Positions 37,551-53,653 of a DNA stretch of 55,952 bases are shown piece by piece. Below the pieces are notes generated by a model. It was not told the origin of the DNA. It did no database searches and saw only the letters and a program-made list of their open reading frames with translations. Location: positions 1 to 55,952 of the forward strand of contig NZ_CBXV010000009.1 in assembly GCF_000820845.2 (NCBI RefSeq). Direction: 5' to 3'. A program made the translations under genes and the position numbers. This DNA is from Pyrinomonas methylaliphatogenes. GTDB taxonomy: Bacteria; Acidobacteriota; Blastocatellia; Pyrinomonadales; Pyrinomonadaceae. The first letter of the stretch is position 1; every line of letters starts with the position of its first letter.

Positions 37551-40444
37551 CCCGCTGGACCCTCAAAATCATTGCCTTTCTCCACGACCCGCCGGGGAAG
37601 GCTCTGGTCTTACGGTCGGCACCCCACACGCCCCACGATAAGCTGGCGGAGGAGCTACAATGTATCGCTTTGGGACACCCTGCGACAGAAGATGAAAAAA
37701 GAGAGCGAGCGACTGAAAAAAAGCGAGCGACGAAAGCCGACCACATTGCTTCGGCGGCGGACCGGGTGAACTTTCCTGGAGGGACTACTGCATACTGGGA
37801 TCAGGGGGATCAGGTCGGGCCCAAACTGACCCATCCTCTTGCGGCAGAGGCGCAGTCTCAGCCCGTGCGCTTACCCTCTCGCAACCTTCAGAACCTGGAC
37901 AATGAGGTACAGACAGCCGCCGGTCAGCACATCCTCCAGCCCTGGGTCCAGCAACTAACCACGCAAGGTGATAAGGATAAGTACCTCTACTTCCGCATCT
38001 GGCGGCTTTTGTATGAGGAGCTTGCCCGGCGAACGAGCCTTAAAAGCTGGGTACGCCTTCTTCCGGCCGATACCCGCCAGCCCGATCATCCGTTAGAACA
38101 GCATCTCTCGATTTCGGCGGCGATTGCAGACGCCCTGCCGAATCCGGCGTTCCTGGTTTTCTCCATCGGCCCGGTTCAGGAGTTCATTGCGGCGGCCCGG
38201 CGCACTCAGGACCTCTGGATGGGGAGCTGGATTTTGTCCTACCTCTCCTGGAAGGCCATGGAAAGCCTGGCCAACGAATTCGGACCGGATGTAATCGTCT
38301 TCCCTTCGCTTCGAGGACAGCCCCTGTGCGATCGTTGGCTGCATAAAGACTATGGGCTGCCCTGTCAGCCCATGCCGGAAGACCTCAGCCGTCCCACCTT
38401 CCCGAATCGTTTCCTGGCTCTCCTGCCCGCCAGTGAAGCAGAAAGTTGGGCCCGAAAGGCTGAACGGGCCGTCCGGAGCGAATGGGAACGCCTGGTGCAA
38501 AAAGTCTACGACGCGCTCAAAAAGTCCAGCATTCTTCCGGCTGACCAGGAGACTGACCGGCTATGGCAGAGCCAGATCGAGAGCCTCTTGGAAGTGTACT
38601 GGGTAGTCTTCTCCTGGCCGGGGGCTAACCAGTCTGATAGCCTACGACAGGCTGACGAAGGAAAGGCGATTTATGAAAAGCTTTGCGCGCCTCCGCAGGA
38701 TTGGGAATTCCAGCGGATCTACGAGACGGTGAAACAGAGCGGTCAATATGACCCCAACTGGGGCACCGTGTATAGCCTTTTTTACGACCTGGCCGACCGA
38801 GCCTTCAACGCCCGAAAAAACCTGCGGAATTTCGGGCAGGCAGAGGAAACGGGTGACAAGTGCACCCAGTGCGGTCAACGGGCCGCTTTGCACTCCAGTA
38901 ACCTGGATAGTCGTGACTTCTGGGCACGAGTAGCCGAAAATCTGCGGAATCAGAATCGCTATGAGATAAAGCCTCACGGCAAAGAGCGACTCTGTGCCGT
39001 CTGCACGGTCAAACGCTTCATTCAGCGAGAGGTGCTGGAGCAGGAGTTCGGACTTCGAGGCGGCTTCCCCTCGATTAGCGAAATCGCCGCCGTTTCTTTT
39101 AAAAAGCGGGTGCTCGATGCTTTGAAAGAAGGGAAGCTGGAGGTTCGTCAAGCTCTGAAGCGTTTCCTCGACATCGCCCATCCTCGCCTGAAGACCGTAG
39201 CCCGGGGAGCTGTACCGTATCTGGAAAAGCTAATACCAAGTCCGGCTACCGGGGAAAAAGAACTGGCAGAAAAACTACCGGAAAAGGAACTAGCAGAAAA
39301 ACTACTGGAAATAGATGGGGAATGGCTCCATCTTGAATCTTGGACCCGGGAGCACCTCGAAGAGATCTGGCCGGGGGTTCGTGAGGACGACATTAGAGAG
39401 GCTCGTGAAGCCCTTCGCAACCTTTATCAGGTGGTGGATGCCAGGCCGTCCAAGTATTATGCCGTTTTGTACATGGACGGCGACCACATGGGGCGCTGGC
39501 TCAGCGGCACCCATGAAGGATTGGCCACGTTCGGCGATACCTGGCATCCGTCGGTTCGTAATCAGCTTGCAAACGCGCCGAACTGGCAAGGTCTCGCAGC
39601 GAGCAAGCGTGTGATTACGCCCGCTGTGCATGCTTCTATCTCGCAGGCGCTGGGGCGCTTCGCCCTCCAGCTTGTGCCCCATATCGTAGAAGAACGCCAT
39701 CCGGGCCGCCTCATCTACGCCGGCGGGGACGACGTGCTGGCCCTGGTACCGCTGGAAGAGGCGCTGGCTGTAGCCCGGGAACTGCGGGCCGCCTTCAGCG
39801 GGCATATCCGTTTTGAGAATGGTGATCTTCAGGTGTGCCTGGGGAACCCCGTCACTGGTTATGTAGAGTGGGGAGATGATGTCTTTCTCACCATGGGACC
39901 GGAGGCGACAGCGTCCATCGGGCTGGTCTTTGCCCATCATCTCCAGCCGTTGGACATGGTGTTGCAGGCTGTGCGCCGTGCCGAGCATACCGCTAAGCAC
40001 CGATACGGCCGCAACGCCCTGGCCGTGGAAGTCCTCAAGCGCTCCGGCGAGACCATAACGGTGGGCACGAAATGGAGCTATGACGGCACGTCAGACGTTG
40101 TGGTGCTTCTGATAGATGTGACAGAGCGCCTACAGAAAGACAAAATCAGCGGTAAGTGGGCCTATACGGTCCATGCGGAGGTAGCAGCGTTGGAGGAGCT
40201 CCCTGCCCAAGCCCAGCGCGCCGAGCTCAAACGCCTGCTCAAGCGACAGGCAGGCCAGAAACTCTCACGGGAGGAGAAAGAGGCTCAGGCAGAAGATCTC
40301 TCGAAGAAGCTCGTAGATTGGGCCCAGGCGATGGGAAAGCCTCGGCCTGATCCATGCGAACCCGAAAGGTCTCTTGTAGGTTTCAGCGAAATGAGCCGCT
40401 GGCTTCTGGCATGTAGCTTCATTGCCCGGGGAGGAGAAGTATGA
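37544..40444 (+). CDS. cmr2: Type III-B Cas10/Cmr2, large subunit with cyclase motif
   Basis: A 966-residue signature protein of III-B systems. The N-terminus has an HD-like site (FLHDPPGKAL, residues 12-21). A zinc-binding region is formed by CTQCG and CAVC (about 440-485). The palm domain has YMDGDHMGRWL and an intact GGDD (residues 727-730), the active site that makes cyclic oligoadenylate from ATP once target RNA is bound. An in-frame micro-repeat (KELAEKL twice, about 571-589) sits in a linker. ATG 37544 lies inside the cmr1 end, and the stop overlaps cmr3 (ATGA). With the CARF-HEPN gene downstream, a working second-messenger pathway is likely. Confidence 0.95.
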   Translation: MLTRWTLKIIAFLHDPPGKALVLRSAPHTPHDKLAEELQCIALGHPATEDEKRERATEKKRATKADHIASAADRVNFPGGTTAYWDQGDQVGPKLTHPLAAEAQSQPVRLPSRNLQNLDNEVQTAAGQHILQPWVQQLTTQGDKDKYLYFRIWRLLYEELARRTSLKSWVRLLPADTRQPDHPLEQHLSISAAIADALPNPAFLVFSIGPVQEFIAAARRTQDLWMGSWILSYLSWKAMESLANEFGPDVIVFPSLRGQPLCDRWLHKDYGLPCQPMPEDLSRPTFPNRFLALLPASEAESWARKAERAVRSEWERLVQKVYDALKKSSILPADQETDRLWQSQIESLLEVYWVVFSWPGANQSDSLRQADEGKAIYEKLCAPPQDWEFQRIYETVKQSGQYDPNWGTVYSLFYDLADRAFNARKNLRNFGQAEETGDKCTQCGQRAALHSSNLDSRDFWARVAENLRNQNRYEIKPHGKERLCAVCTVKRFIQREVLEQEFGLRGGFPSISEIAAVSFKKRVLDALKEGKLEVRQALKRFLDIAHPRLKTVARGAVPYLEKLIPSPATGEKELAEKLPEKELAEKLLEIDGEWLHLESWTREHLEEIWPGVREDDIREAREALRNLYQVVDARPSKYYAVLYMDGDHMGRWLSGTHEGLATFGDTWHPSVRNQLANAPNWQGLAASKRVITPAVHASISQALGRFALQLVPHIVEERHPGRLIYAGGDDVLALVPLEEALAVARELRAAFSGHIRFENGDLQVCLGNPVTGYVEWGDDVFLTMGPEATASIGLVFAHHLQPLDMVLQAVRRAEHTAKHRYGRNALAVEVLKRSGETITVGTKWSYDGTSDVVVLLIDVTERLQKDKISGKWAYTVHAEVAALEELPAQAQRAELKRLLKRQAGQKLSREEKEAQAEDLSKKLVDWAQAMGKPRPDPCEPERSLVGFSEMSRWLLACSFIARGGEV

Positions 40445-41577
40445 GCTTCGCTTTGGTCATACAGCCCCATGATGTCCTTCTTTTCCGGGATGGGAAGCCC
40501 TTCTCGGCGGGCACGGATATACGAGCCCGGAGCCTCTTCCCTCCGACGCCCTTCACGATCCAGGGGGCCATCCGGGCTCGGGTGCTCTTTTCCAGCGGCG
40601 TCAGCCCGGCAGACTATGCCCAAGGGACGATCCCAGCGGCCCAGCAACTGCATAACCTGATCGGCACTCCTCAGGGAGGCTACGGGCAACTTCGCTTGCG
40701 AGGACTTTTCCTGGCACGGCGGAAAAACGACCAGTGGGTGCGCTACTTTCCGGTACCGGCAGATGTGAAGCGCCTAAAGGGTTCCTACATACTTCTCAAA
40801 CCCTTGCAACAGCCTCAACACTCGTTCTGGCAGTCGAATCTCCCTGATAACCTGTTCACGCCGTGGCTTCGCACGACCGAGCATATAGAAGACGCACAGG
40901 GTTGGATCAGCGAGGAAGATCTGCGCCGTTACCTTGCGGGAAATGCTCCTCAGGAGGTGTTAGAAGAATCCTGCTTCGTCGAGCGGGAGCATCGGTTCGG
41001 GATCGCGCTGGAGCGAGCGCAACGCACGGTGCGGGAATCGTTCTTGTATCTGGCCGAATTCCTCCGACTCAAAGAAGGGGTGGCCTTCTGGGTAGAGGTA
41101 GAGGGCATTTCCCCGAGCCACCTGGGAGGGGACACGGGCTTCCTCCAGCTGGGCGGAGAGGCCCGTGCGGCCTATTACACGATACAACCTTCGGCAGTGA
41201 GCTCGCTCCCGAGTCCACCAAACCCCTTGCCGGAACGCTTCAAGGTGGTGCTCTTGACCCCTGCGTGGTTTTCCGATGGTTGGCAGCCGCAGGGCGGAAA
41301 CTGGGGACAGTTCTTTAACGGCTCCGTGCGGCTGGTTTCGGCCATCATCCCCCGCTACCAGCCGATCGGCGGAGCGTATGTGGACGACCAACGGCGGAAA
41401 GGGGCTTTCCAAAAGCCCATGCGCCGGTTTGTGCCCGCCGGAAGCGTGTATTTCTTTGAGCACGACGGCACGGCTTCCTGGGCTGGGCAGCCCTTCACAG
41501 AAACCCCTTCCGGGGAGGGGGACTACGGCCAGATCGGCTTTGGTACCTGTGTTATCGGCGAGTGGAACTATGCATAA
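40441..41577 (+). CDS. cmr3: Type III-B Cmr3 (Cas5-like RAMP)
   Basis: A 378-residue subunit that binds the 5' tag of the crRNA beside Cmr2. Typical opening: IQPHDVLLFRDGKPFSAG, then SLFPPTPFTIQGAIRARVL. EHRFGIALERAQRTV is a conserved Cmr3 segment, and GGSV-like loops (GAYVDDQRRKGAFQKPMRRFVPAGSVYFFE) complete the fold. Starts on an ATGA overlap with cmr2 and has GGAGGAG just upstream, so the two are translated together. Confidence 0.93.
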   Translation: MSFALVIQPHDVLLFRDGKPFSAGTDIRARSLFPPTPFTIQGAIRARVLFSSGVSPADYAQGTIPAAQQLHNLIGTPQGGYGQLRLRGLFLARRKNDQWVRYFPVPADVKRLKGSYILLKPLQQPQHSFWQSNLPDNLFTPWLRTTEHIEDAQGWISEEDLRRYLAGNAPQEVLEESCFVEREHRFGIALERAQRTVRESFLYLAEFLRLKEGVAFWVEVEGISPSHLGGDTGFLQLGGEARAAYYTIQPSAVSSLPSPPNPLPERFKVVLLTPAWFSDGWQPQGGNWGQFFNGSVRLVSAIIPRYQPIGGAYVDDQRRKGAFQKPMRRFVPAGSVYFFEHDGTASWAGQPFTETPSGEGDYGQIGFGTCVIGEWNYA

Positions 41578-41588
41578 AGGAGGTTGCT

Positions 41589-42590
41589 ATGTTTGACTGC
41601 GCAGGGATGCTTTTCCTGTATACCGAAACCCTGCTCCACGCAGGGAGCGGCACGAGCCTGGGTGTCGTGGACCTGCCCATCCAGCGAGAGCGCACCACGG
41701 GCTATCCCATGATCCAGGCTTCCGGGCTCAAAGGCTGCCTGCGGGATGTCATGATCCAGGCTTCCGGGCTCAAAGGCTGCCTGCGGGATGTGGCGGATAG
41801 TAACTGTCAGAAGGTGGAGATCGTTTTCGGCCCCGACACGCAGCGCGCATCCGATCACGCCGGGGCCCTTTCGGTGGGTGACGCCCGCATCCTGCTCTTT
41901 CCGGTGCGATCGCTAATGGGTGTCTTTGCCTGGGTCACGAGCCAGAACGTCCTGGCCCGCTTCAAGCGGGAGGCTATGATGGCAGGACTCTCAGTGGACT
42001 GGGATCCGCCTGGCCCGCCCAACGATAGCACAGCTTTGATTCAGGGCAACTTGCTGGTAGCGAATGGAAAGATCGTGCTGGAGGAGTTTGCCTTTACGGC
42101 GCAAACGGATAGTAGGGTGGAGGACATCGCAAAATGGCTCAAGGAAAACGCATTGCCCAGCGATAGCGAATACGCCTACTGGCGAGACACGCTGGAAAAA
42201 CGGCTCGTCATCCTGCCCGACAATGACTTTCAGTACTTCGTTCAGTTCTCTACGGAGGTCATCGCCCGGGTGCGGATTGACGACACCAAAAAGACCGTGG
42301 AGCGAGGCGGTCTTTGGACCGAGGAACATCTGCCCTCCGAAACGCTCCTGTATGCCACACTCTTTGCGAGCAAGCCTCGAGTGAAAGACGAGGAGTTGCC
42401 CGACGATTGGAAACAGGCAAATGACCGAGCTGGGAAGATTCTGGAATTCGTAAAGCAAGCTGTAGATGGCAAGCGCCTTCAGTTGGGCGGCGATGCCACC
42501 GTCGGGCGAGGCATCGTAAAAGTGCGCTTCGTAGAAGGACAAGCCCGAGCTCAGACAGCCAGTGCGGCTCAAAGGGGAGGTCAGCCATGA
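41589..42590 (+). CDS. cmr4: Type III-B Cmr4 (Cas7-like target-RNA slicer), with internal 14-residue duplication
   Basis: A 333-residue backbone subunit that cuts target RNA at 6-nt steps. AAAGGAGGT precedes ATG 41589. LHAGSGTSLGVVDLPIQRE holds the expected catalytic Asp (D28). Immediately after, the conserved RAMP helix MIQASGLKGCLRDV (41-54) is repeated perfectly at 55-68, from a 42-bp tandem duplication (41709-41750 and 41751-41792, one base different). The rest of the protein is normal and ends with LGGDATVGRGIVKV. The duplication is in frame, so the protein may work, but an additional helix at the RNA-binding core is odd. The stop overlaps cmr5. Confidence 0.93.
   Translation: MFDCAGMLFLYTETLLHAGSGTSLGVVDLPIQRERTTGYPMIQASGLKGCLRDVMIQASGLKGCLRDVADSNCQKVEIVFGPDTQRASDHAGALSVGDARILLFPVRSLMGVFAWVTSQNVLARFKREAMMAGLSVDWDPPGPPNDSTALIQGNLLVANGKIVLEEFAFTAQTDSRVEDIAKWLKENALPSDSEYAYWRDTLEKRLVILPDNDFQYFVQFSTEVIARVRIDDTKKTVERGGLWTEEHLPSETLLYATLFASKPRVKDEELPDDWKQANDRAGKILEFVKQAVDGKRLQLGGDATVGRGIVKVRFVEGQARAQTASAAQRGGQP
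41709..41792 (+). repeat. 42-bp tandem duplication within cmr4
   Basis: Two adjacent 42-bp units differ only at the last base (C or G). They encode the same 14 residues. The near-perfect identity means the duplication is recent or under gene conversion, or could be an assembly error. Confidence 0.95.
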
Positions 42591-43021
42591 GCGCGAAGTC
42601 CCTGCAAAAAACCCTGGAACAGGAGCGAGCCCAGCGGGCGTGGGTTTGTGTTCAGGAGGTCACGAACCAACCCCAGGACTTCAAGAAAAAATACGGCTCC
42701 CTGGCTCGCAAAGTCCCGATGCTGGTCCTCACGAACGGCCTGGGGCAGACGTTGGCGTTCCTCTTGTCCAAAGCGAAACGACATGAGCCAGAGAACAAAC
42801 GCAGTGTGGAGGCAAAAGCCCACGACCTTCTTTTTACCCACCTCTCGAACTGGGTTCTTGAGCAGGTAGCGCCCGGTACAGGCACCGGCAATCAGGACCT
42901 GCTTCAGTGGGTGCTTGCGAACGACAGCGTCGCCTACCGGCGGGCAACGAAGGAGGCATTGGCCTTTCTGAATTGGCTCAAACGCTTCGCCGAAGCTGAA
43001 CTGCCAACGGAGGAGGAGTAA
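42587..43021 (+). CDS. cmr5: Type III-B Cmr5 small subunit
   Basis: A 144-residue helical protein, the usual size for Cmr5, which lines the target-strand channel of the complex. KTLEQERAQRAWVCVQEV at the start and KVPMLVLTNGLGQTLAFLLSKA are characteristic (family: ...RA..A...V, then KLP..I..nGL...laFl). The start overlaps the cmr4 stop (ATGA) and the stop is 1 bp from cmr6. Confidence 0.93.
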   Translation: MSAKSLQKTLEQERAQRAWVCVQEVTNQPQDFKKKYGSLARKVPMLVLTNGLGQTLAFLLSKAKRHEPENKRSVEAKAHDLLFTHLSNWVLEQVAPGTGTGNQDLLQWVLANDSVAYRRATKEALAFLNWLKRFAEAELPTEEE

Positions 43022-43022
43022 C

Positions 43023-43859
43023 ATGCCAGGACCTCGTCATCCTCGCAGGGAACCACGAAGCCCAGAACACCCGGGTTCGTCTGAGAAGATGGCCCGGCAT
43101 TTTCCCCTACCGCTGGAGGAAGTGGCACATCAGGCCGTCGGCCTTCAAACCTGCCTCAATCCGGGTTTGTGGCTGGATCATTTCACCGAATGGGAGGAAC
43201 GACGTGGAGAGCTCAAGCGCGCAGAAGCCTCGGACAAGCGCCAGCGGATTCCCAGGTCTTTCAATTTTCCAGAGCTTTGTCAGTTGCTTTCAGCTTATAG
43301 AAACCGGTGGGACCGCATGCTAGACGCCTTGAGGACGCAGAACTACATCGTGCAAAAGTTCACCCTCCGTGCCGCCAGCCGCGTCATCGTGGGCCTGGGA
43401 GCTGAAAGCGTCTTAGAGACCAGCATTCGCCTGCACCGGATCTACGGCTTCCCCATCATTCCGGGCAGCGCGCTCAAGGGCGTGACCAAAGAGGGCAAAA
43501 ACGAAAGCGATCCCGTTTTTGTTGACATCTTTGGCAAGAGTCCTCCCGAGTCTCAAGCCGGCAAAGTCATCTTCTTTGACGCCATTCCGGCCAATCCGGC
43601 GAATCTGACCCTGGAGCTCGACGTGATGAACCCGCACTATGCTCCCTACTACCAAGGTGTAGCACCGCCAGCAGACTACCACAACCCTGTGCCTGTCTTT
43701 TTCCTTACCATTGGCCCGGGGAGCGAGTTTCTCTTTGCGGTGGCTTCGCGGGAGAAGCACCTGGCGGAAAGGGCCCGCGAGTGGCTTATAGAGGCCCTGA
43801 CGGAGATAGGCATCGGAGCAAAAACTGTGGCCGGTTATGGCCTGTGGGAGAGGTGGTGA
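43023..43859 (+). CDS. cmr6: Type III-B Cmr6 (RAMP, Cas7-like)
   Basis: A 278-residue backbone subunit at the crRNA 3' side. NLCLKF-like opening is replaced by a basic, Pro-rich N-terminus of about 28 residues. The core shows ASRVIVGLGAESVLETSIRLHRIYGFPIIPGSALKGVTKE, with the RAMP loop PGSALKG. GKVIFFDAIPA, LDVMNPHYAPYY and IGIGAKTVAGYGLWE (Gly-rich loop) are also typical. GGAGGAGG precedes the ATG and overlaps the cmr5 end. Confidence 0.93.
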   Translation: MPGPRHPRREPRSPEHPGSSEKMARHFPLPLEEVAHQAVGLQTCLNPGLWLDHFTEWEERRGELKRAEASDKRQRIPRSFNFPELCQLLSAYRNRWDRMLDALRTQNYIVQKFTLRAASRVIVGLGAESVLETSIRLHRIYGFPIIPGSALKGVTKEGKNESDPVFVDIFGKSPPESQAGKVIFFDAIPANPANLTLELDVMNPHYAPYYQGVAPPADYHNPVPVFFLTIGPGSEFLFAVASREKHLAERAREWLIEALTEIGIGAKTVAGYGLWERW

Positions 43860-44169
43860 CCAGACGCAGGAGGCCCTTGAGACCCACGAGCCGGATGTCC
43901 AGGAGCCGAAACCGGCCGCGCCTGAACCACTCGATGAGGCATCGCCCGGCACGCCTCGGATCCCGGCGCAGGTTGTCGACAATTCTCGAAAACCCATCCG
44001 GGTCAGGCTACTCGTCAAGGGTTATGAAGGAGACATTTTGGAATGCGGCGGCGTGGCGAACCCGGAGGCCTTTCCCGTTGGATCATACATATGGGTCCAG
44101 GCATCGGAGTTCGATAAGAAAACTCGGCGCATCAAGACAGTTCGCGTAGTTGGGATGTGGGAGCCATGA
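43837..44169 (+). CDS. Small unknown protein between cmr6 and the CARF-HEPN gene
   Basis: A 110-residue frame that overlaps the cmr6 end by 23 bp and whose TGA overlaps the ATG of the next gene. Residues 1-50 are Pro/Glu-rich and probably disordered. Residues about 51-110 (PIRVRLLVKGYEGDILECGG ... YIWVQASEFDKKTRRIKTV) look like a small all-beta, OB-like domain ending in VVGMWEP. I do not recognise the family. Tight coupling on both sides suggests a role with the III-B complex or the ribonuclease, such as a regulator or adaptor. The start could be elsewhere because the ATG lacks a clear ribosome site. Confidence 0.6.
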   Translation: MACGRGGDQTQEALETHEPDVQEPKPAAPEPLDEASPGTPRIPAQVVDNSRKPIRVRLLVKGYEGDILECGGVANPEAFPVGSYIWVQASEFDKKTRRIKTVRVVGMWEP

Positions 44170-45683
44170 AAGCCTTGACGTTTCTTGGAGCAAGCCCTTA
44201 CAAGACCGTCACCTACGTGTGGCGAGACGAGCAGGGAGAGCACGCGGTCCAGACCCATCTCTTTCCCGAGGCAATTGCTCACATCTTCAAGCCCGAAAAG
44301 CTCCTAGTCTTCCTGACAGAGACGGCCCAGCGTTACCAACCGCCTTGCTCCCAACAATCTCACCTAGACACGCTTCGAGATCGCCTGCACGGCCTGGGCA
44401 TTCCGATCGAATCCATTGACATTCCAGAAGGCCGTTCTCCGCAAGAATTGTGGGATATCTTCGATCGAGTGGTTTCCTCGGTCTCGCAAAGCGATACTGT
44501 CCTCCTGGACGTCACCCATGCCTTCCGGTCTATCCTGATGGTCGTACTCGCCGTAGCCGCTTACCTGCGGCGTGCCAAAAACGTGACCATCGAACGCATC
44601 GTCTACGGCGCCTTCGAAGCCCGAGAGCCTTTCCGCACGCCACCCCAGCCTGAAGATCGCGCGCCCGTCTTCGACCTCACGCCGCTCCTCGAACTTCTGG
44701 ACTGGATCGGCGGAGCCGAAGCCTTGCTCAAGCGCGGGGATGCCGGGCTCATTGCCGAAAAGATGGTCGCCGCCCACCAGACCCTGCGGCGCACCGGCAC
44801 GGGCACGCCGGAAAAACTCAAAACCCTGGGGCAGAAACTCCGCACGTTCTCCCAAGCCCTGCATCTGAGCCACCCCCGGGATGTTCTGCGCGTGGCCCAT
44901 GAACTCTTGCCGCTTCTGGAAGGAACTCGGGGCGAGTTCGAACAGTGGGCTAAGCCCTTTGCCCTCTTGGTGGATCAGGTTCGGCGTGAGCTCGAACCCC
45001 TCGCCTTTGCCGAACCCGACACCCTCAGCCAGGAAAACTTGGAGAGACAGCTCCGACTGGTGGAGTACTACTTGGCGAAAGGGCTCATCGTGCAGGCCGT
45101 CACCCTGGCCCGGGAGTGGGTGGTCTCGTATGTGCTCCTTTGCCGGGGGAGTGGCGATTGGCTACGGCGAAGCGACCGGAAAGAAGCCGAAGATGCGCTC
45201 GGTGCCGCCGCTGCCCGCTTACAAGGAGGAACCGCCGAGCCGCCCCCGGAATGGTTCGACCAGCTCCCCACCGGTCTGTCAGATCTCTGGAACAAGCTGG
45301 GACAGTTGCGCAACGACCTCGCCCACTGCGGCATGAGTACTGATGCCCGGAGTGCTGATGCCATCGAGAAGGATGCACGAGCAATCCCGGTAAGGCTCCG
45401 CGCACTTCTCGCATCGGCGCCCGACAGCGTACTCTACGGCGCCCGCGTGATCGTGGATTTGAGTAACTTCTACGAGGGCACGGCGCGGCTGGAAGACCTT
45501 CCGCAGTACCTGGACCGCGCCTGGGAACTTGCCGGCGAGGGGAACGAAGTGGTCCTAACGGGGCAGGCCCCGATCTGGCTGTATCTGGCCGTCGCCCACG
45601 CCCTCCACGGCAAGGCTCGGCGACTGTGGTACCAATCGCCCGCAACGGGCGAAGTGCTAGTCTTTGACCACTCGGCGAGGTAA
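44166..45683 (+). CDS. CARF-HEPN CRISPR ribonuclease (TM1812/Csx1-Csx2 type) with a C-terminal Csx3-like domain
   Basis: A 505-residue protein. N-terminal CARF domain: MKALTFLGASPYKTVTYVW and DVTHAFRS (residues 115-122), the TM1812-type DxTHxFRS motif that binds cyclic oligoadenylate. HEPN ribonuclease: RNDLAH (R382-H387) fits the R-x4-6-H active site. The last 85 residues (421-505) are extra for this family. They resemble Csx3/Crn3 ring nucleases: a strand, LPQYLDRAWEL, VVLTGQAPIWLYLAVAHALHG, then YQSPATGEVLVFDHS. The GxxPIWL-AH-xx-H pattern and a terminal His match Csx3, as I recall its sequence; the Csx3 Asp-x-Arg pair is not kept. The start overlaps the upstream TGA. Likely activated by the Cas10 encoded in the same operon. 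Confidence 0.85.
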   Translation: MKALTFLGASPYKTVTYVWRDEQGEHAVQTHLFPEAIAHIFKPEKLLVFLTETAQRYQPPCSQQSHLDTLRDRLHGLGIPIESIDIPEGRSPQELWDIFDRVVSSVSQSDTVLLDVTHAFRSILMVVLAVAAYLRRAKNVTIERIVYGAFEAREPFRTPPQPEDRAPVFDLTPLLELLDWIGGAEALLKRGDAGLIAEKMVAAHQTLRRTGTGTPEKLKTLGQKLRTFSQALHLSHPRDVLRVAHELLPLLEGTRGEFEQWAKPFALLVDQVRRELEPLAFAEPDTLSQENLERQLRLVEYYLAKGLIVQAVTLAREWVVSYVLLCRGSGDWLRRSDRKEAEDALGAAAARLQGGTAEPPPEWFDQLPTGLSDLWNKLGQLRNDLAHCGMSTDARSADAIEKDARAIPVRLRALLASAPDSVLYGARVIVDLSNFYEGTARLEDLPQYLDRAWELAGEGNEVVLTGQAPIWLYLAVAHALHGKARRLWYQSPATGEVLVFDHSAR

Positions 45684-45883: not shown

Positions 45884-46618
45884 ATGCGGCTGAAATTATT
45901 ACTGGAAACTCGCGAGCCGATCACCCTGCCATGGGATTATCGTACCGACCTGACGAAGGCAATATACGCGATCCTAGAAGCGGCAGACCCCGATTACAGC
46001 CGTTGGCTCCATGAGCACGGTTTCCGCTGGCAGAATCGGATTTATCGCCTCTTCGTCTATTCGGATCTGATGCTCACTCACTGGAATTGTTCGCCTCAGG
46101 GGCTAACCGATGTTCGCTGGATGGCGTGGCAGATCAGCAGCCCTGATCCGCGATTTGTGAAAGCATTCCAGGCGGGCCTGGAACGTAAGGGAGGGCAGCT
46201 CGAGCTTTTCGATACGCTCGTAGAGGTCCTCGACATCGTGCGTGTAGAGGTGCCCGAACCCGGAAGCGGTCTGGTCTTCCGTACAATCTCACCAATCGCT
46301 GTCTCCATAGGCGATCCTAATCGCTCGCGGCATCCGATTTACCTTCGCCCCGACGAGCCCCGGTTCGTCGAGGCTCTCGAACGCAATCTCATCACGAAGT
46401 GGCAGGCTTTCCAACAGCGAGAATGGGACGGCGGAGAGTTCGGTCTCCGCGTCTGGAACCCAAAGCAAAAGCTCGTTCGCGTGTTCGATACGGATGTGCG
46501 CGCTTGGCACCTGTATCTTCAGATGTGGGGCGATGAACAGCTCATCCGCTTCGCTTATACGGCAGGGCTGGGAATTAAAAACAGCCAGGGATTCGGCATG
46601 ATCGAACCAGGAGGGTAA
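45884..46618 (+). CDS. cas6: CRISPR pre-crRNA endoribonuclease Cas6 (second copy, head of I-B operon)
   Basis: A 244-residue RAMP-fold ribonuclease. It starts MRLKLLLETREPITLPWDYRTDL and has RWLHEHGFRWQNRIYRLFVYSDL, FRTISPIAVS and the C-terminal loop AGLGIKNSQGFGMIEPGG, all standard for Cas6. AAGGGGAGC precedes the ATG. It is 3 bp upstream of cas8b and therefore the dedicated crRNA-processing enzyme of the I-B set; it may also serve the III-B complex, which lacks its own processing enzyme. It is closer to the broken cas6 at 35401 than to the first cas6 at 34618, judging from the WDYR..LT..IY.IL segment. Confidence 0.93.
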   Translation: MRLKLLLETREPITLPWDYRTDLTKAIYAILEAADPDYSRWLHEHGFRWQNRIYRLFVYSDLMLTHWNCSPQGLTDVRWMAWQISSPDPRFVKAFQAGLERKGGQLELFDTLVEVLDIVRVEVPEPGSGLVFRTISPIAVSIGDPNRSRHPIYLRPDEPRFVEALERNLITKWQAFQQREWDGGEFGLRVWNPKQKLVRVFDTDVRAWHLYLQMWGDEQLIRFAYTAGLGIKNSQGFGMIEPGG

Positions 46619-46621
46619 GCT

Positions 46622-48604
46622 ATGATCGCGACGCTCGTTCAAGTCGCTAAAGAGTTGGCCCGCTATGAAGGCGGAAAGCGCGGCTGGACTCCGGAACAGG
46701 TTGTCCTTCATCGTTTGTGCGAAAGCGCCATCAAGGATAAAAGCGCCATCAAGGGCAAAGAAGCTCCCAAGGTGAAAGTGGCGGCGATTGATTTGGCGAC
46801 TGGGGTCGTCCGCCTGGAAGATTACAAGGACGAAGAAAGGTATAAGTATCTCCATGCCTTATCAACCGGCAATACGGCTATTGGACCTTCGTGGTTATTG
46901 GATTTCCGAAAGACAAAAGGGGGAAACCCTAAGAAGACCCGCGAGGAAATCATCAGGACCGGACTTAGGAAGATCCGTGAGGCGCTGACGAGTTTCCAAG
47001 AATCGGGAAATCTTTCTCCTGATGATTGGGAGAAGAAGCTCGATGAAGCGACGCAAAATGAATCACTCATTTTGGCGGTGGCCGTGCAAAGTGGAAAGAT
47101 GCCGGGCGAGCGCGAAGAATTTCGCAATGGGTTCATTCGCAAAAAAATCTTAGGCGAACGGCGTGCGAAGAAGGGCGCGAGCCGTTGCGCTGTCTGCGGC
47201 AGTGAGGGCCAGGTCAGCTCGGCTATTCCTTTTCGGTTCTTCACCGTCGAAAAACTCGGCTTCAGCCCGATGGGGCGCGAAGTGGACCTTTGGAAATATG
47301 CTCCCGTTTGCGAAGAATGTGCAAAGTGGCTCTATGTCGCCGAGAGCTATTTTGAGGAGAACTTGAGCACGAAAGTCGCCGGCAAAAACACCTACCTCCT
47401 GCCCGATTTGGAACCGGGCGCGTCGGAAGTGGAAGGCTCGTTCGTGCGTTTCCTCTGGGAGTGGCGCGAGAGCACGAAGGGCAAAGCTGTTCCCGAAGAT
47501 CACTTCCCCATCGCCGAGAAACCCAAGAAAGCAAGGTCGAAAAGGGCGGGCGATGTTGAGGTTGACTCTCTGCCGAATCTCTTTGAAGGACTCGTGGAAG
47601 AGATTGACGAAAGATTCAAAGATAAGCCTCCGTTCCGCTCGGCATCTCTGGTCTTTTATCAGCCTGGCCAGAAGTTCATATTCCTCTATACGATCTCAGA
47701 CATCCTGCCCATCAACCTGCGCAGAACGAAAGAGCGGCTTCGGGCGCTGCGCGAGATGTTGCGAAACGAGGTTCTCGGCGTAGAAGGAAGTTCCCTTGCG
47801 CAGTGGCTGAAGGCTGACTTTGAATTCGTTGGGCGAGCGTGGAAGTGGCCGCGCAGAGGTCGAGACGAAACGCAAGGCGCTCTCAAGTTCAGTCCGATGC
47901 ATCTTGTGGAAGCGATCCTGACGGATCGGCCTCTGCCCGAGTGCGAATTCTGGCAGGACGCCGACGGCCTCTTGCGCGCCACCTACCAGGAGACCATCAG
48001 CAGTAAAGATCAAAAACGCACCGTGCAGATGGCCCTCGCTGAGCGTGCGAGATACATCTGGACAATCTGGGCGCTCATTTATTGCTCTGAATTACTCGAA
48101 GGAGGCACGAATGGGACAATGCAACCGACACCAACCGGTCAGGGCGTGAATGAACAGTTCTGGGAAGACTTCTTTCGACCGAGGCTGTTTCTGGATTCGC
48201 CCGCAAAACGAGCGGCGTTTTTGGTGGGAGTCCTTTTCGGTCGCGTTGAAGGAAAGCAACGAAGCGAGCGGCAGAGTAAAGCCGGCGAGATGCCCATCAT
48301 CAGCCGCCTGCGAGGACTAACCGTTTCGCGGGGAGAGATCATGGCGAAGATCTTTCCCGAGCTGATGCTCAAGCTTCGCCAGTTGGACGCCAACACCCAG
48401 GCGATTCAAGTGATTCAACAGGCGGCGGCTGATTTCGCTTCGCAAAGCGGCGAGCTCTCGGACGAAGAAGCGCGGTTTTGCTTCTGTCTGGGCTGGGCGC
48501 TCTCGTGGACGACGGTGGATGCCGTCGGTAAGACGCTCGGAGCGCCGGCAGGCGAAGAGGCCGAGGAAGCTTCTCCCGAAGAGGAAATAGAAGGTGAATC
48601 TTAA
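46622..48604 (+). CDS. cas8b: Type I-B Cas8b/Csh1 (TM1802 family), Cascade large subunit
   Basis: A 660-residue large subunit that recognises the PAM and starts R-loop formation. GGAGGG precedes the ATG. It has the family zinc-binding pairs CAVCGS (about 189) and CEECAK (about 230), followed by the long helical C-terminal half (FWEDFFRPRLFLDSPAKRAAFLVGVLFGRVE). Near the N-terminus a micro-duplication encodes SAIKDK SAIKGK (46727-46760). The tail (from about 640) is acidic and disordered (EEASPEEEIEGES). Place in the operon between cas6 and cas7 is normal for I-B. Confidence 0.9.
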   Translation: MIATLVQVAKELARYEGGKRGWTPEQVVLHRLCESAIKDKSAIKGKEAPKVKVAAIDLATGVVRLEDYKDEERYKYLHALSTGNTAIGPSWLLDFRKTKGGNPKKTREEIIRTGLRKIREALTSFQESGNLSPDDWEKKLDEATQNESLILAVAVQSGKMPGEREEFRNGFIRKKILGERRAKKGASRCAVCGSEGQVSSAIPFRFFTVEKLGFSPMGREVDLWKYAPVCEECAKWLYVAESYFEENLSTKVAGKNTYLLPDLEPGASEVEGSFVRFLWEWRESTKGKAVPEDHFPIAEKPKKARSKRAGDVEVDSLPNLFEGLVEEIDERFKDKPPFRSASLVFYQPGQKFIFLYTISDILPINLRRTKERLRALREMLRNEVLGVEGSSLAQWLKADFEFVGRAWKWPRRGRDETQGALKFSPMHLVEAILTDRPLPECEFWQDADGLLRATYQETISSKDQKRTVQMALAERARYIWTIWALIYCSELLEGGTNGTMQPTPTGQGVNEQFWEDFFRPRLFLDSPAKRAAFLVGVLFGRVEGKQRSERQSKAGEMPIISRLRGLTVSRGEIMAKIFPELMLKLRQLDANTQAIQVIQQAAADFASQSGELSDEEARFCFCLGWALSWTTVDAVGKTLGAPAGEEAEEASPEEEIEGES

Positions 48605-48620
48605 ACTCAAGGAGGTGCGC

Positions 48621-49640
48621 ATGGAAAAAACCTATCCCTATCGGTCTGAGATCCTTTTTCTCTACGACGTGTTTCGCTGCAATCCGAACGGCGATCCGTT
48701 CGAAAACCGCCCAAGACAGGACCCCGAAACGGGTCGTATTGATGTCACCGATGTGCGCCTCAAACGAACGATTCGAGATTACATCCTTCGCTACAAGCAC
48801 CGCGATCCGAACGATGGCCTAGAAATCTTCGTTCGCGTCGCCGACGAGAAGGCCTTGACTGCGGAGCGACGCTACGAAGAGATTTTCGGAAGCTTGCCGA
48901 AAGCTGGCGAAGTGGAAAGGGTTAAAGAGCAGCTCATAAAAACGTGCGTGGATGTTCGCCTGTTCGGCGCGCTCGTGCCCATTACGGAAAAGAGAGCCGC
49001 GAAGGGCAAGAAGGGGAAGGCCGAAACACCGGCTAAAGGCGACGAGGGAGGCGAAAGCGGCGGGGTGCAACTGACGGGCGCCGTGCAGTTTAATCCCGGA
49101 CAAAGCCTGCATGCTGCCGAGATCTTGGAAATCGCCGGCACCGGTGGGTTCGCTTCCAAAGAGACCGCTCGACAAAAGACCTTCCGCCGCGAATTCATCG
49201 TCCCCTACGCGCTCATCGGCTTTTACGGCGTGATCAACGAGAACCTGGCAAAGGAGACGGGCCTTACCGAAGAAGATGTAGCTCTGCTGATGGAAGCGAT
49301 GTGGCGTGGGACGCTATCGCTCCATTCTCGCTCGAAGGCTTTCCACCATCCGCGCCTTCTCCTGCGCTTTGACTTCACGAATGAAGTCCAGTGCGGTTAC
49401 TTCCTCGATCGCATTGAGCTGGAGCGCAATTTGGGCGACGAGCGCCGTATCCGCTCGCCGAAAGACTACATGGTGAAGATAGACGGCGTGCTCGAAACAG
49501 TTCAACGGCGTGCTGGGAATCTGGCCCGAATCGAATGCTGGATTGATTCGGGGCTGAGGCTATCGCCGGAAGAGTTGAGCGAGAAGCTTGCGGAGCTTCT
49601 TGCTGATAAGCGAGACGCATTGACTTTCCAGGCAGCGTGA
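48621..49640 (+). CDS. cas7: Type I-B Cas7 (Csh2), Cascade backbone, with low-complexity insertion
   Basis: A 339-residue crRNA-binding backbone protein. AAGGAGGT precedes ATG 48621. The opening SEILFLYDVFRCNPNGDPFENRPR and TDVRLKRTIRDYI is the Csh2 signature; DVRLFGALVP and LTGAVQFNPGQSLH follow. Between these, residues about 123-149 form a Lys/Gly/Glu-rich stretch (EKRAAKGKKGKAETPAKG and nine more) that is not part of the usual fold. The end has FHHPRLLLRFDFTNE and a normal C-terminus. Several copies of the protein coat the crRNA. Confidence 0.94.
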   Translation: MEKTYPYRSEILFLYDVFRCNPNGDPFENRPRQDPETGRIDVTDVRLKRTIRDYILRYKHRDPNDGLEIFVRVADEKALTAERRYEEIFGSLPKAGEVERVKEQLIKTCVDVRLFGALVPITEKRAAKGKKGKAETPAKGDEGGESGGVQLTGAVQFNPGQSLHAAEILEIAGTGGFASKETARQKTFRREFIVPYALIGFYGVINENLAKETGLTEEDVALLMEAMWRGTLSLHSRSKAFHHPRLLLRFDFTNEVQCGYFLDRIELERNLGDERRIRSPKDYMVKIDGVLETVQRRAGNLARIECWIDSGLRLSPEELSEKLAELLADKRDALTFQAA

Positions 49641-49656
49641 GCGCGAAGGAGGCGCT

Positions 49657-50421
49657 ATGGGTAAAGTGCCGATCTGTCTTTTCACGATACGGGGCCAGTT
49701 CGCTCACTGGCGTAAGTGGTTCACGACGACTTCGGCGTTAACCTACAGCTTCCCTCCACGCACGGCGGTCATCGGGATGGTCGGCGCTATTCTTGGCGTG
49801 CCGCGAGAGAAAGTAGCCGAAGTTTTCAAGGCGAGCGACACCCGCACCGCCGTTTGTCCGTTGCGACCGATCGTGAAGGATCGTCTTGCTGAAAAGTGGC
49901 GCCAGACTCCTCCGCGCCTCGTTAAAGGGAGGTTCGATCCGGCCAAGATGGACGAATCCTTCCAGGAGAATCTAGAGGTCGTCCGCCGCCCGTGCTACAG
50001 GATCGTGTTCTGGCATCGGAATGAGGCATTGATGGAGAATCTCAAAGGGCGTCTTCAGCAGAAACGATGGGTTTATCCGCCCTGCTTGGGGATCATGGGT
50101 TTTCTGGCCGATGTCGAATGGGAAGACGAAGATGTCGCCGAAGAGATTGAGGTAGATAAAGCCGATATTCTTTCGGTTCTTCCACTTGACGAAGCAATGG
50201 CGAAAGCGATTGATCTTTCCGAATCTGAAGTGCTCTTGCGCGAAGAGCGCGTTCCGAATGAAGTCTTTTCGGATCGAACCTTTCGCCATCTCTATCTGGC
50301 CTATGTATCGCGCGAGGCGAAACCGCTGAAGGTGCGGACGAATGAGCAGGATAAACTGAAGGCTTTTCGCCTCCGCCGGCTTTGCCAGCAGATAGTATGC
50401 TTCGAACTATGCGCGAACTGA
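49657..50421 (+). CDS. cas5: Type I-B Cas5
   Basis: A 254-residue Cascade subunit that holds the crRNA 5' handle. AAGGAGGCG precedes ATG 49657. FTIRGQFAHWRKWFTTTSALTYSFPPRTAVIGMVGAILG is a textbook Cas5 N-terminal RAMP segment. The rest includes KGRLQQKRWVYPPCLGIMGFLADVEWE. The end overlaps the start region of cas3, so the two are probably translationally coupled. Confidence 0.94.
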   Translation: MGKVPICLFTIRGQFAHWRKWFTTTSALTYSFPPRTAVIGMVGAILGVPREKVAEVFKASDTRTAVCPLRPIVKDRLAEKWRQTPPRLVKGRFDPAKMDESFQENLEVVRRPCYRIVFWHRNEALMENLKGRLQQKRWVYPPCLGIMGFLADVEWEDEDVAEEIEVDKADILSVLPLDEAMAKAIDLSESEVLLREERVPNEVFSDRTFRHLYLAYVSREAKPLKVRTNEQDKLKAFRLRRLCQQIVCFELCAN

Positions 50422-52931
50422 AGTCACACCCAGACATCCTGTTGGTAGATCATTTGCAGGATGTGGCCCAAAGGGCCTCTAAACTCATTATTGAGTTGAG
50501 ACCGTACCTGCAACTTTGTATTCGACCTGAGGACATTGCCCGAGCGGCTTTCATCGCCGGATGCACGCACGATTTCGGAAAGGCGAAGCGCCAATTCCAG
50601 GATTACATCCATGGCGGCAAAGGCAAGGATAAAGATCACGCGGCGATCTCCTCGGTCTTCACCTTCATCGTCGCCTCGCAGGTTTTCGGCCAAAAGCCGC
50701 GGCCGACGCGGCTGCTCCCCTTCGCCTGCGCCTACGCCGTCAACCGCCACCACGGGCTGCTCTGTAACCTCGAAGAGGCTTTTGAAGAAGCGAGCATCGA
50801 GCATCAGATCAAAGTCGCTCGGGGCAACATAGACGAGCGCATCTGGGATTTCGTGATGCGATGCGAGCCGCTCGACCTGACTCTACGCTTTGCGGATTAC
50901 CGCAAGCAGTTCGAGGGAATAACGGCCCAACAGATCACCGAATGCTTTCAAAAATTCGGCCAACTGCTCAGACAGAAAGCCGACGAAGCGAATCCTTCCG
51001 AGAGTTGGCTCGTCGACCTTTATTTCGCCCTCCTGCTCGTCGTCTCGACCCTGACCGAAGCCGATGTCGCCTGCGTCATCCAAGCGCCAGAACCAAAACA
51101 GGCCGTGTCGCTTGATCCCGAACGGATTTGTCAGTACGCGTCCGAACAGCCGCAGGCCAGCATATCATTTCAGGAACTTCGCAAGCGCGCCTGGGAAGAG
51201 ATTCAAAGGGCCGTTAAGGAACCAGACACGTCGGCCTTCAGATTGACTCTGCCGACGGGACTTGGCAAGACCCTGATGGGCCTTTACTTCTCCGCCGCCG
51301 TGCAACGCAAGCACGAGGATGTGCAAAGATCGCAGCCCGTCATTTACGCGCTGCCCTATCTTTCCATCATCGAGCAGGCGACGGATGTTGCGCGTCGAGT
51401 TTTCCCAAGAGACGAAACCGGCGTTTCCGTGATCCAGCATCACGGCCTGAGCTTTCCCGAAAGCAAAAGTGATGAAGAAGCGAACTTCGAGAAGGCGCGA
51501 TTCGCCTTGGAAGATTGGGATGCGGATCTTGTCGTTACGACCTTTGATCAGCTCTTCTATTCTTTCCTCGCGAACGATCGCGGCTTTATCCGGCGATTCT
51601 TCCGCTTGCCTGGAGCGGTGCTCCTGCTCGATGAAGTGCAGACGATCCCCGCACGACTCATTCCAGCGGTCGATACTCTTCTTCAAAGAATGCGTGAAAA
51701 GCTCGGCGTCGAAATTGTATATATGACCGCAACCCATCCGCCCTTTCTTAAAGCCGCCAAAAGCCTCGTGCAAAACGCTGAAAGCTACTTCCAACAGCTT
51801 GAACGGACACGGCTGCGACTTCAGTTGGAGCCGATTAAGTTCAGCGACTATGCTTCCCAGCTTGGTGATTGGCTTCGCGAGAGGAAAGGAAAGAAGTTGT
51901 TGATCGTCGCTAACACGATACGCAGCGCGCGGGATCTCTTCGTTCATCTCGCGAAACTCAAAGAAGATGAGGCTGAGTTTCAAAACCTAAAGCTATTCCA
52001 TTTATCAGGAAGCGTTGTGCCTATCGAGCGACTACGCCGAATCAAAGAGATCCGCAAGCTGATCCGAAGCGAGCCGGAAGCGTGGATTGGCGTCGTATCT
52101 ACGCAATGCGTGGAAGCTGGCGTCGATTTGGACATGGACGAAGCGGTTCGAGACTTCGCACCGTGGGACTCGTTGTTGCAGATTTGCGGGCGCGCTAATC
52201 GCTTTGGCAAGCGACAGTGCGCCGATGTGTGGGTGTATAGGTGGATAGATGATGCGGACGAGAATCAGAGGGAATTCCACAGCTACATTTACGATTCGAT
52301 CTTCACCGACGCCGCTTTGAAGGTGCTGAAGAATCGTGCCGAAGTTACAGAGGGAGAGTACTTGACGGTGCAGCAGGAATATGTGCGTGAACTTGAAGAA
52401 CGGTTGTCACCTGAAGCCTCGAAGGAGATTCTTCGCGCGGCGCTCGCTTGGAGGTTCGATGATTTGGATTTCAAGAAGCTCTTCCGCGGACAAGAAGAGG
52501 CTTGGAAGGTACCGTTGTTCTGCGTAGCAGACCAGACCGCCGATTACCTCAAGAATGTGGCGAGTGAACTCTGGTCGAGCAAGAATTTGGATGCAGCTCT
52601 AGATTTGCTCGACAGGCTTTGCGCTTCGGAAAAGCTTTTTGGTCCTTTGGAGGGCTTCTTGCAAGTCAAATCAGAAAGCGTTTGCCAGCAGCTTAAAAGC
52701 CTCGAAAATCTCCCCGCGCGTCGCAAGAGGTTCGCATTTATAAAATTGCTTCAACCGATGCTCCAAGCTTATACGATCTCGGTGCCGGTCAGACAGCTCG
52801 AAGACCTCTCATACGGTCGAATTACAGAGTGGTTCTTGTATTTGTCGCAGTCTGGTTATAGAAAGCTCAACGCGATCTGCGACATAAATAGTGATGACGA
52901 GGACCAAAGGGTTTCGGATCAGATCGTTTGA
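50397..52931 (+). CDS. cas3: Type I-B Cas3 helicase-nuclease
   Basis: An 844-residue protein that degrades target DNA recruited by Cascade. HD nuclease domain: H19 (LLVDH), HD at 58-59 (THDFGK), H81 and HH at 118-119. Helicase domain: Walker A LPTGLGKT (about 285), DEVQ (about 415) in place of DEAH, TATHPP motif III, and STQCVEAGVDLD with QICGRANRFG as motifs V-VI. All active-site groups are present, so the enzyme looks functional. The start is not certain; ATG 50397 and ATG 50409 are both inside the cas5 end. Confidence 0.94.
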   Translation: MLRTMRELKSHPDILLVDHLQDVAQRASKLIIELRPYLQLCIRPEDIARAAFIAGCTHDFGKAKRQFQDYIHGGKGKDKDHAAISSVFTFIVASQVFGQKPRPTRLLPFACAYAVNRHHGLLCNLEEAFEEASIEHQIKVARGNIDERIWDFVMRCEPLDLTLRFADYRKQFEGITAQQITECFQKFGQLLRQKADEANPSESWLVDLYFALLLVVSTLTEADVACVIQAPEPKQAVSLDPERICQYASEQPQASISFQELRKRAWEEIQRAVKEPDTSAFRLTLPTGLGKTLMGLYFSAAVQRKHEDVQRSQPVIYALPYLSIIEQATDVARRVFPRDETGVSVIQHHGLSFPESKSDEEANFEKARFALEDWDADLVVTTFDQLFYSFLANDRGFIRRFFRLPGAVLLLDEVQTIPARLIPAVDTLLQRMREKLGVEIVYMTATHPPFLKAAKSLVQNAESYFQQLERTRLRLQLEPIKFSDYASQLGDWLRERKGKKLLIVANTIRSARDLFVHLAKLKEDEAEFQNLKLFHLSGSVVPIERLRRIKEIRKLIRSEPEAWIGVVSTQCVEAGVDLDMDEAVRDFAPWDSLLQICGRANRFGKRQCADVWVYRWIDDADENQREFHSYIYDSIFTDAALKVLKNRAEVTEGEYLTVQQEYVRELEERLSPEASKEILRAALAWRFDDLDFKKLFRGQEEAWKVPLFCVADQTADYLKNVASELWSSKNLDAALDLLDRLCASEKLFGPLEGFLQVKSESVCQQLKSLENLPARRKRFAFIKLLQPMLQAYTISVPVRQLEDLSYGRITEWFLYLSQSGYRKLNAICDINSDDEDQRVSDQIV

Positions 52932-52956
52932 CTAGATCCTGTGAGGTATATCGCCC

Positions 52957-53472
52957 ATGACCGATGAAGAGTTCGCTGAGTTGAAGACGAATGGAATCAA
53001 AGTCAACTATTATCTCGTCTGTCAGCGAAAGCTTTGGCTCTATAGCCGCGATCTTCGCATGGAGCGGACGAATGAGCGCGTCGCGCTGGGAAGACTGCTT
53101 CACGAAAGATCGTATCGCGAGCAACCGCGCCATGAAATGCTCATCGATAACTTGATCAAGATAGATCTGCTGGGAAGTCAAGGCAAAGTGCTCGAAGTTA
53201 AATACTCGCGCCGCATGAAAGAAGCGGCGCAGATGCAGATCCTATACTATCTCTACTACCTAAAACGGCTCGGCGTCACGGGCCTCACAGGCGAATTGCG
53301 CTTCCCGCGGGAGAGGCGGCGCGAAAACGTCGAATTGACGGAAGAGGCTGAGAAACGGATCGAACACACTTTGCGCGAGATCCGTCGAGTGGAGAATCTT
53401 GCTGCACCGCCTCAGGTGGACTTCATGCCAATTTGCCGCTCTTGCTCCTATTGCGAGCTGTGTTGGGGATAG
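52957..53472 (+). CDS. cas4: Cas4 adaptation exonuclease with iron-sulphur cluster
   Basis: A 171-residue RecB-type nuclease that trims prespacers and helps choose the PAM. The first cluster cysteine is in LVCQRKLW (C22); three or four more close the protein (CRSCSYCELC, residues 160-169). The nuclease core has D70, then VLEVKYS (E80, K82) and QILYYLYYL. Length is right for I-B Cas4. The stop codon lies in the left member of a repeat pair, and 181 bp separate it from cas1. Confidence 0.93.
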   Translation: MTDEEFAELKTNGIKVNYYLVCQRKLWLYSRDLRMERTNERVALGRLLHERSYREQPRHEMLIDNLIKIDLLGSQGKVLEVKYSRRMKEAAQMQILYYLYYLKRLGVTGLTGELRFPRERRRENVELTEEAEKRIEHTLREIRRVENLAAPPQVDFMPICRSCSYCELCWG

Positions 53473-53562: not shown

Positions 53563-53653
53563 GATGATGAACGCACAATGGCGAAGCGTTTAGGAAACAA
53601 GCGGCAGGCCTTGCCGTTATAGATTGCAGCGACTTTCGCTGAAGGAGAACCCG

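Follow-up and report, generated by a model that had tools for sequence, protein, structure and literature searches.

Effectors of type III CRISPR (clustered regularly interspaced short palindromic repeats) systems are toxic to their own cell, so it matters how an alarm raised by cyclic tetra-adenylate (cA4) comes to an end; does the locus studied here encode an effector that ends its own alarm? The window, the whole stretch of 55,952 nt analysed, is contig 9 (1-55952) of the 3.79-Mb genome of Pyrinomonas methylaliphatogenes, and it holds a fusion gene at 44166-45683 (+ strand), located between cmr1-cmr6 and a type I gene set that ends in cas1 and a CRISPR array. The gene is an open reading frame (ORF) of 505 aa starting from the ATG at 44166 and matches the PADLOC model PDLC01844. 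An earlier note, written from the sequence alone, read its product as a CARF sensor, a HEPN ribonuclease (R382/H387) and a Csx3-like tail, and both the frame and this composition are confirmed. With a probability of about 60%, the product is an ancillary effector of the type III-B system that carries its own off-switch, a tail that would bind free cA4 and remove it; such a fusion would fix the ratio of sensor to remover at 1:1.

The tail (residues 427-505; 45444-45680, + strand) was delimited by sequence match, predicted fold and conservation. In particular, the Pfam Csx3 model (PF09620) matches residues 460-503 with 25.4 bits, over its gathering cut-off of 21, and has no match over cut-off in 14 of 14 control genomes; the Csx16 model (PF09652) has no match in the Pyrinomonas genome, a result that carries no weight since the controls gave none either. 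Among PDB entries, the A. fulgidus protein AF_1864 (AfCsx3) ranks first both for the tail alone (E = 0.018) and for the tail profile (E = 0.0023). The tail structure, predicted from 69 sequences (12 fused and 57 of 75 listed stand-alone relatives), has a mean predicted local distance difference test (pLDDT) score of 90.4. After structural re-alignment against 1000 chains, AfCsx3 entries occupy ranks 1-5 (Z 8.0-8.6, root-mean-square deviation (rmsd) 2.4-2.5 over 75-76 residues); the top row is 6yud_F, A. fulgidus Csx3 with cA4 (Z 8.6, rmsd 2.5 over 75 residues), and the first non-Csx3 row is Cat1 (Z 6.3). Foldseek likewise returns 6yud (E = 8.7e-4). For some models a Z of 7-8 can come from the common arrangement alone, so sequence and fold have to be weighed together; jointly, they indicate that the predicted tail has the Csx3 fold, a resemblance that goes beyond chance. 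The fold is accordingly Csx3-like rather than unrelated, as the earlier note supposed, and the motifs that it listed all lie in their places (G466-Q-A-P-I-W-L472, A477-H478-A-L-H481, Y489-Q-S-P-A493 and D501-H502-S503).

By domain models and motifs, the rest of the product is a CARF-HEPN ribonuclease of the Csx1/TM1812 type, with a predicted RNase activity. The CARF sensor domain (approximately residues 1-178; 44166-44699, + strand) is supported by two models, by conservation and by the CARF domains that match residues 1-174 of the predicted structure. TIGR02221 (cas_TM1812) scores 105.4 bits (cut-off 76.25) in two stretches, the best covering residues 75-198, and the DxTHG model scores 29.7 bits (cut-off 21) on the motif D115-V-T117-H118-A, where the final G is replaced by A. 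A helical linker and the HEPN ribonuclease follow (approximately residues 179-414; 44700-45407, + strand), carrying the motif R382-N-D-L-A-H387, of the R-x4-6-H form typical of HEPN, and matching Csx1-Crn2 and Csx1 in structure. The CARF residues D115, T117, H118 and R121 and the HEPN residues R382 and H387 are identical in 15 of 15 aligned fusions. The closest structure to the full-length predicted model (mean pLDDT 86.4) is Marinitoga Csx1-Crn2 (Z 22.2, 426 residues, rmsd 5.2), which bears out the analogy to that protein drawn at the outset; the best tailless match is Sulfolobus islandicus Csx1 (Z 19.3). The Synechocystis plasmid pSYSA encodes a homologue without a tail, which shares 33% identity over residues 1-417; its plasmid, size and neighbour make SyCsx1 (slr7061) its most likely identity. 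SyCsx1 is a cA4-activated nuclease of single-stranded RNA (PMC9676260).

Does the tail retain what a Csx3 needs for catalysis? In AfCsx3, the H60A and D69A mutants are inactive, R71A and H80A are highly reduced and H57 is absolutely conserved; stacked dimers form the active site jointly, one contributing a 'D69 face' and the other an 'H60 face' (PMC7371418). In the profile alignment with AfCsx3, H478, H481 and H502 correspond to H57, H60 and H80; Q490 stands at D69 and A493 at R71, with S491 as an insertion, so that the Asp and Arg of the Y-D-P-R segment are indeed changed, as first read. The histidine triad is invariant in 69 of 69 aligned sequences and, by pattern check, in 78 of 78 stand-alone sequences, counts that are partly built in because the retrieval patterns contained parts of the histidine motifs; all three histidines are also present in L022-L024, three stand-alone members that a profile search, and not a motif, had retrieved. 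Across the subfamily, the catalytic loop YDPR-x-G of Csx3 is replaced by Y-x-SP-x-TG-[E/D]. The 69 aligned sequences all have S491 and P492; 66 of them carry Glu or Asp at position 496 and 61 carry Arg or Lys at position 486, whereas Gln or Ala prevails at position 467 (equivalent to R46). R486 and E496 are candidate stand-ins for the lost D69/R71 loop. Position 490 is Asp in 6 of the 69. It is Arg in 40 of 57 stand-alone sequences and in no fused one (0 of 15 aligned fusions), which suggests that the fused domain is tuned differently from the stand-alone one.

The changed loop is a trait of the subfamily, because all 12 aligned fusions and all 57 aligned stand-alone relatives share it. Throughout the sampled sequences, as far as an alignment can tell, one face (His/metal) is kept and the other (D69/R71) is remade. 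Decay of the domain was considered as the cause of the changed loop and rejected as the leading explanation, as the stand-alone genes share the loop and no other part of the fusion is as conserved as the tail. A separate Csx3-AAA protein that supplies the missing face is not supported either: no other Csx3 exceeds the PF09620 cut-off in the genome, where a weak match of 13.5 bits lies at G000:C8 (L134). Among 396 sampled genomes of the phylum, only G039 has a Csx3-AAA-like protein in addition to a tail match, and the Csx3-AAA proteins that were read show no uniform loss of one face.

The company kept by the stand-alone genes bears on what the domain acts upon. On genome contigs, 66 of 73 stand-alone genes have an upstream ORF of at least 100 aa ending within 400 nt, and the other seven were left out. 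Clustering of the 66 upstream genes yielded 20 CARF-TM (transmembrane) genes, 13 that are mostly CARF-PDDEXK (with at least two nucleotidyltransferases among them), 5 Csx1 (CARF2-HEPN), 5 of the SAVED-TM type, 5 small membrane proteins, 2 in a cluster that holds a CARF3 protein, 2 CARF9-HEPN and 14 mostly unrelated singletons. Individual scans covered one to three members of each cluster, and the small-membrane member had no match. We take the CARF-PDDEXK cluster to be of the Can2 type. When PADLOC was applied to all 66 genes, it labelled 25 as 'CARF, 2 TMs' and 17 as CARF4-PDDEXK, although its CARF models overlap. Overall, about 44 of the 66 upstream neighbours (roughly two thirds) look, from their sequences, like sensors of cyclic oligoadenylate (cOA). 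Because these varied partners share a ligand and not a toxic domain, the stand-alone Csx3-like domain most likely acts on the ligand.

Csx3-like genes were also seen in several further arrangements. In a type III-B locus (L058 8762-9610), a gene directly after a stand-alone copy encodes a protein of 283 aa that joins a class III cyclase domain (Guanylate_cyc, 27.1 bits, cut-off 21.9) to a Csx3-like domain at the C-terminus, which lacks the A-H-x-x-H histidines. Proteins of about 105 aa (L013 1336-1653 and L025 1321-1632) have a Csx3-like G-x-MAVWAY...H pattern and fall below the Pfam Csx3 cut-off. Further, on two cyanobacterial plasmids (L138 1405-2712 and L139 1013-2298) a small stand-alone Csx3 is followed by a Csx3-AAA gene; in L138, the small Csx3 has the full canonical residue set and its Csx3-AAA lacks most of it.

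Stand-alone copies also occur on five IMG/VR contigs (L110-L114), which are classed as viral. Phage-type genes are identified by PHROGs on 4 of the 5: L110 and L113 each have a terminase, L111 has a RecE-like exonuclease, and L114 has virion and RNA polymerase proteins; for the one large L112 protein that was scanned, all matches are to families of unknown function. The flanking DNA covered, of which ten neighbouring proteins were scanned, showed no CARF-type gene beside the five copies. The five rows are scattered in the tail tree (4 changes for 5 rows), where 43 of 500 shuffles gave as low a value and most forks are unresolved. The viral copies rest on these five contigs, because a tblastn search of phage and plasmid records with one stand-alone sequence found nothing and a structural search of viral models gave no match at E = 0.001 or better. 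A mobile element would gain from such a gene mainly if the signal were weakened, and the copies are candidate anti-CRISPR genes. L111 also carries type IV CRISPR genes at 826-4100 (Cas8/Csf1 142.5 bits, Cas11 130.5, Cas7/Csf2 271.2 and Cas5/Csf3 187.5) and may therefore be another kind of mobile element; these genes and a PAPS-reductase/DndC-like gene lie shortly before its Csx3-like gene.

How widespread is the fusion itself, and did it arise once? With the full protein as query, no relatives were found in the genome contig collection; the tail alignment as query found them, and since that scan covers the best 80 of 121 relatives, the counts are lower bounds. There are at least 16 distinct fused proteins, one of them partial, and one remnant. 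The fused proteins are those of the window, G047, G055, G051/L090, G039 (partial), L033 and L035 (one Acidobacteria metagenome-assembled genome), L030-L032, L034 and L036-L040; one identical 528-aa frame occurs in both G051, which shares its class with the window, and L090, whose record is titled Blastocatellia bacterium. Their record titles name Chloroflexota, Clostridia, Rhodothermus, Acidobacteria, Blastocatellia, Acetomicrobium, Bipolaricaulota and Caldatribacterium. Within the phylum, the tail profile matches 12 of 396 sampled genomes at E = 0.001: six with full or partial fusions (including the Pyrinomonas genome), three with stand-alone genes and three with weak matches to other small or canonical Csx3-like proteins. 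The remnant, on contig 4 of G051 (L015 1388-1636), joins the first CARF residues straight to the final 32 residues of the tail, which lie in a different frame; it adjoins cas3 and has Asp at position 490.

Across 15 fusions, the mean pairwise identity of the tail is 72% (84% for residues 456-502), as compared with 55% for the CARF domain, 46% for the linker and 44% for HEPN, and tail identity exceeds CARF-HEPN identity in 103 of 105 pairs. In a tree built from 79 tail rows, a single branch sets the 15 fused rows apart, with a support of 69 by the Shimodaira-Hasegawa-like approximate likelihood ratio test (SH-aLRT), a quick method applied here to few columns; the window's group of 11 has an SH-aLRT of 97. 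This tree would allow the fusion to have arisen once, and the support is weak. The earlier note also raised the question of whether the tail is a standard part of TM1812-family proteins. This was rejected: other TM1812 relatives are tailless, with open frames of 398-426 aa in G041, G042, G046 and G058, and 0 of 20 listed plasmid matches reach beyond query residue 423.

The mechanism that we favour would proceed as follows. On target recognition, Cmr2/Cas10 would make cA4, which would bind the CARF dimer and switch on the HEPN RNase; the Csx3-like tail, present in equal number through the fusion, would bind free cA4 and remove it. Removal would most likely be a metal-dependent cleavage in which the histidine triad (H478/H481/H502) of one dimer face acts on cA4 held on another dimer. 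A ligand-removing role is favoured because of the AfCsx3-like fold, the invariant triad, a conservation that is the highest in the fusion, the varied cOA-sensor partners, the viral copies and the precedent of Csx1-Crn2. In that precedent, Marinitoga MpCsx1-Crn2, one chain has two cA4 sites and combines a cA4-activated RNase with a cA4 ring nuclease (PMC7293037). By analogy, the product is most simply read as a self-limiting effector like Csx1-Crn2.

Several observations weigh against cA4 removal by the tail. The NCBI Crn3/Csx3 equivalog model TIGR02579 has a cut-off of 55.4, and it scores 21.9 bits on the whole protein and 25.4 on the tail alone. Arg is found at position 493, the R71 equivalent, in 0 of 69 aligned sequences, and the tail has Q490 and A493 where AfCsx3 needs D69 and R71. 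Loss of either residue is costly in AfCsx3 itself, since D69A abolishes and R71A greatly reduces activity (PMC7371418). Some Csx15 proteins bind cA4 without cutting it (PMC13148439). The patterns of the collection scans held AHALHG and GE..FDH, of which one sufficed per locus, and this bears on the histidine counts. Lastly, about one third of the 66 upstream genes are not recognisable sensors.

In the main rival, the tail would bind cA4 between stacked dimers uncut, and would either lower the free cA4 or link effector dimers into filaments. The D69 equivalent is lost in nearly all, and the R71 equivalent in all, of the 69 aligned sequences; Csx15, a related small family in which some members cut cA4 and others only sponge it, forms head-to-tail stacks (PMC13148439); and AfCsx3 H60A turns milky with cA4, which its authors read as consistent with extended fibres (PMC7371418). 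However, the triad that is metal-binding or catalytic in AfCsx3 stays invariant while the D69 position varies, and its retention would be less expected in a pure sponge. Cleavage of cA4 therefore appears likelier than sponging, which we consider unlikely, though worth taking seriously. An improbable alternative is that the tail keeps only the His/metal face and cuts cA4 presented by a CARF dimer, its own or a neighbour's, that replaces the lost D69 face. It would account for the loss or variability of the D69, R71 and R46 equivalents, which form one face in AfCsx3, next to the retained H57, H60 and H80 equivalents, for the split of the AfCsx3 site between two faces (PMC7371418) and for stand-alone genes that often adjoin CARF genes; an enzyme acting on free ligand is nevertheless a better fit to the SAVED-TM partners and to viral-contig copies with no CARF gene seen nearby. 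Least probable of all is an oligomerisation or stability domain with no ligand function, which the lost D69, R71 and R46 and the stacking dimers of Csx3 (PMC7371418) would allow, but which hardly explains the invariant triad, the stand-alone versions beside varied cOA sensors and the viral-contig copies.

A self-limiting effector that removes cA4 thus stays the preferred reading of the fusion. For the tail as such, a broader description can be offered tentatively, at somewhat below even odds: a distinct 80-residue Csx3-like family of many phyla and phage-type contigs, which is either a ring nuclease with a rebuilt site (Y-x-S-P-x-T-G-[D/E] and a basic strand) or a cA4 sponge, and a candidate anti-CRISPR. 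A Csx3-like domain that lacks the Asp and Arg needed by Csx3, and yet is strongly conserved, would imply either that the Csx3 mechanism is broader than its best-studied example suggests or that the domain is a cA4 sponge.

The gene lies in a type III-B setting. Upstream lie cmr1-cmr6 (36234-43859, + strand), recognised as ORFs, with Cmr3, Cmr4 and Cmr6 identified by NCBIfam; the names Cmr1, Cmr2 and Cmr5 are presumed from gene order and sequence, the order being the same in related loci. The Cmr2 translation retains the HD pair (FLHDPPGKA) and the GGDD palm motif, and cOA synthesis is therefore expected. The ATG of the fusion gene overlaps the 3' end of the preceding small ORF by 4 nt. Downstream (45884-54985, + strand) are the type I genes cas6, cas8-like, cas7, cas5, cas3, cas4 and cas1 (Cas1b), where Cas1 is identified by TIGR03641 and the other names are putative, from sequence and gene order. 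The start of a CRISPR array follows at 55835-55930 (+ strand), with a 30-nt repeat at a spacing of 66, in two identical copies and one degenerate copy at 55769.

Two irregularities were seen upstream of the fusion gene. At 43023-44169, the Cmr6 proteins of relatives (L032, L036 and L030) align first with the annotated cmr6 ORF and then, in a second frame, with the small ORF at 43837-44169, so that cmr6 is split by a frame change, natural or a sequencing error; the relative L033 also lacks the extension. Within cmr4 (41708-41791), a perfect 42-nt tandem repeat, natural or an assembly artefact, doubles a 14-residue segment that is single in three related Cmr4 proteins. Elsewhere in the genome, contig 5 (L133 3497-8675) has a second type III locus, whose Cas10 is closest to III-A models; there, CARF7-RelE is directly followed by a 122-aa gene of ring-nuclease type (Crn2/Csx16-like; PF08960 95.1 bits, PADLOC Csx16 102.8 bits), which is the same order, a sensor gene and then a putative ligand remover, as in the stand-alone Csx3-like loci.

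How new is this architecture? The earlier note did not count the combination among the known fusions, a view that is not supported: PADLOC-DB has a dedicated model, PDLC01844 (CARF2--CARF_HEPN_CSX3), which aligns residues 1-504 with model positions 1-464 of 464 at 730.9 bits. It shares the domain order over the full length with nothing essential different, so the architecture is already catalogued and the gene is a further member. The same model scores 804.3 bits on the Acetomicrobium hydrogeniformans fusion (L034) and 440.6 bits on that of G047 (L004), and PADLOC-DB also has CARF_HEPN fusion models with CSX16 and CSX20. The model presumably derives from the 2020 CARF classification of Makarova et al. 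No experimental paper on a CARF-HEPN-Csx3 fusion was among the listed matches in open-licence literature. What remains noteworthy is that one face of the active site is remade and that mobile elements carry copies.

Besides this model, four known systems come closest. A. fulgidus Crn3/Csx3 (AF_1864; 6yud, 3wzi and 6vjg) shares with the tail its fold, the G45/P48/I49/W50 segment and H57, H60 and H80; in contrast, the tail lacks D69, R71 and R46, has a loop that is one residue longer and ends 3 residues past its last histidine, whereas the Csx3 chain continues and is encoded by a separate gene. Csx3-AAA (Csx3') of cyanobacteria and others, of which proteins are present in L116, L119 and L137-L139, also has its Csx3 domain in a fusion, but at the N-terminus and with a kinase/transferase- or AAA-type partner (PMC7371418 and PMC12409355). 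Fusions of Crn4 to Csm6-2 and TIR-SAVED likewise place a ring nuclease at the C-terminus of a cOA effector, with another ring nuclease family and other effectors (PMC12830947). Marinitoga Csx1-Crn2 (PMC7293037; 8y7g and 8y6z, Z 22.2 and 21.8) also joins a CARF-HEPN RNase to a C-terminal domain that turns cA4 off; that domain is Crn2 (DUF1874), a Pfam match that the window's protein does not have, and not Csx3.

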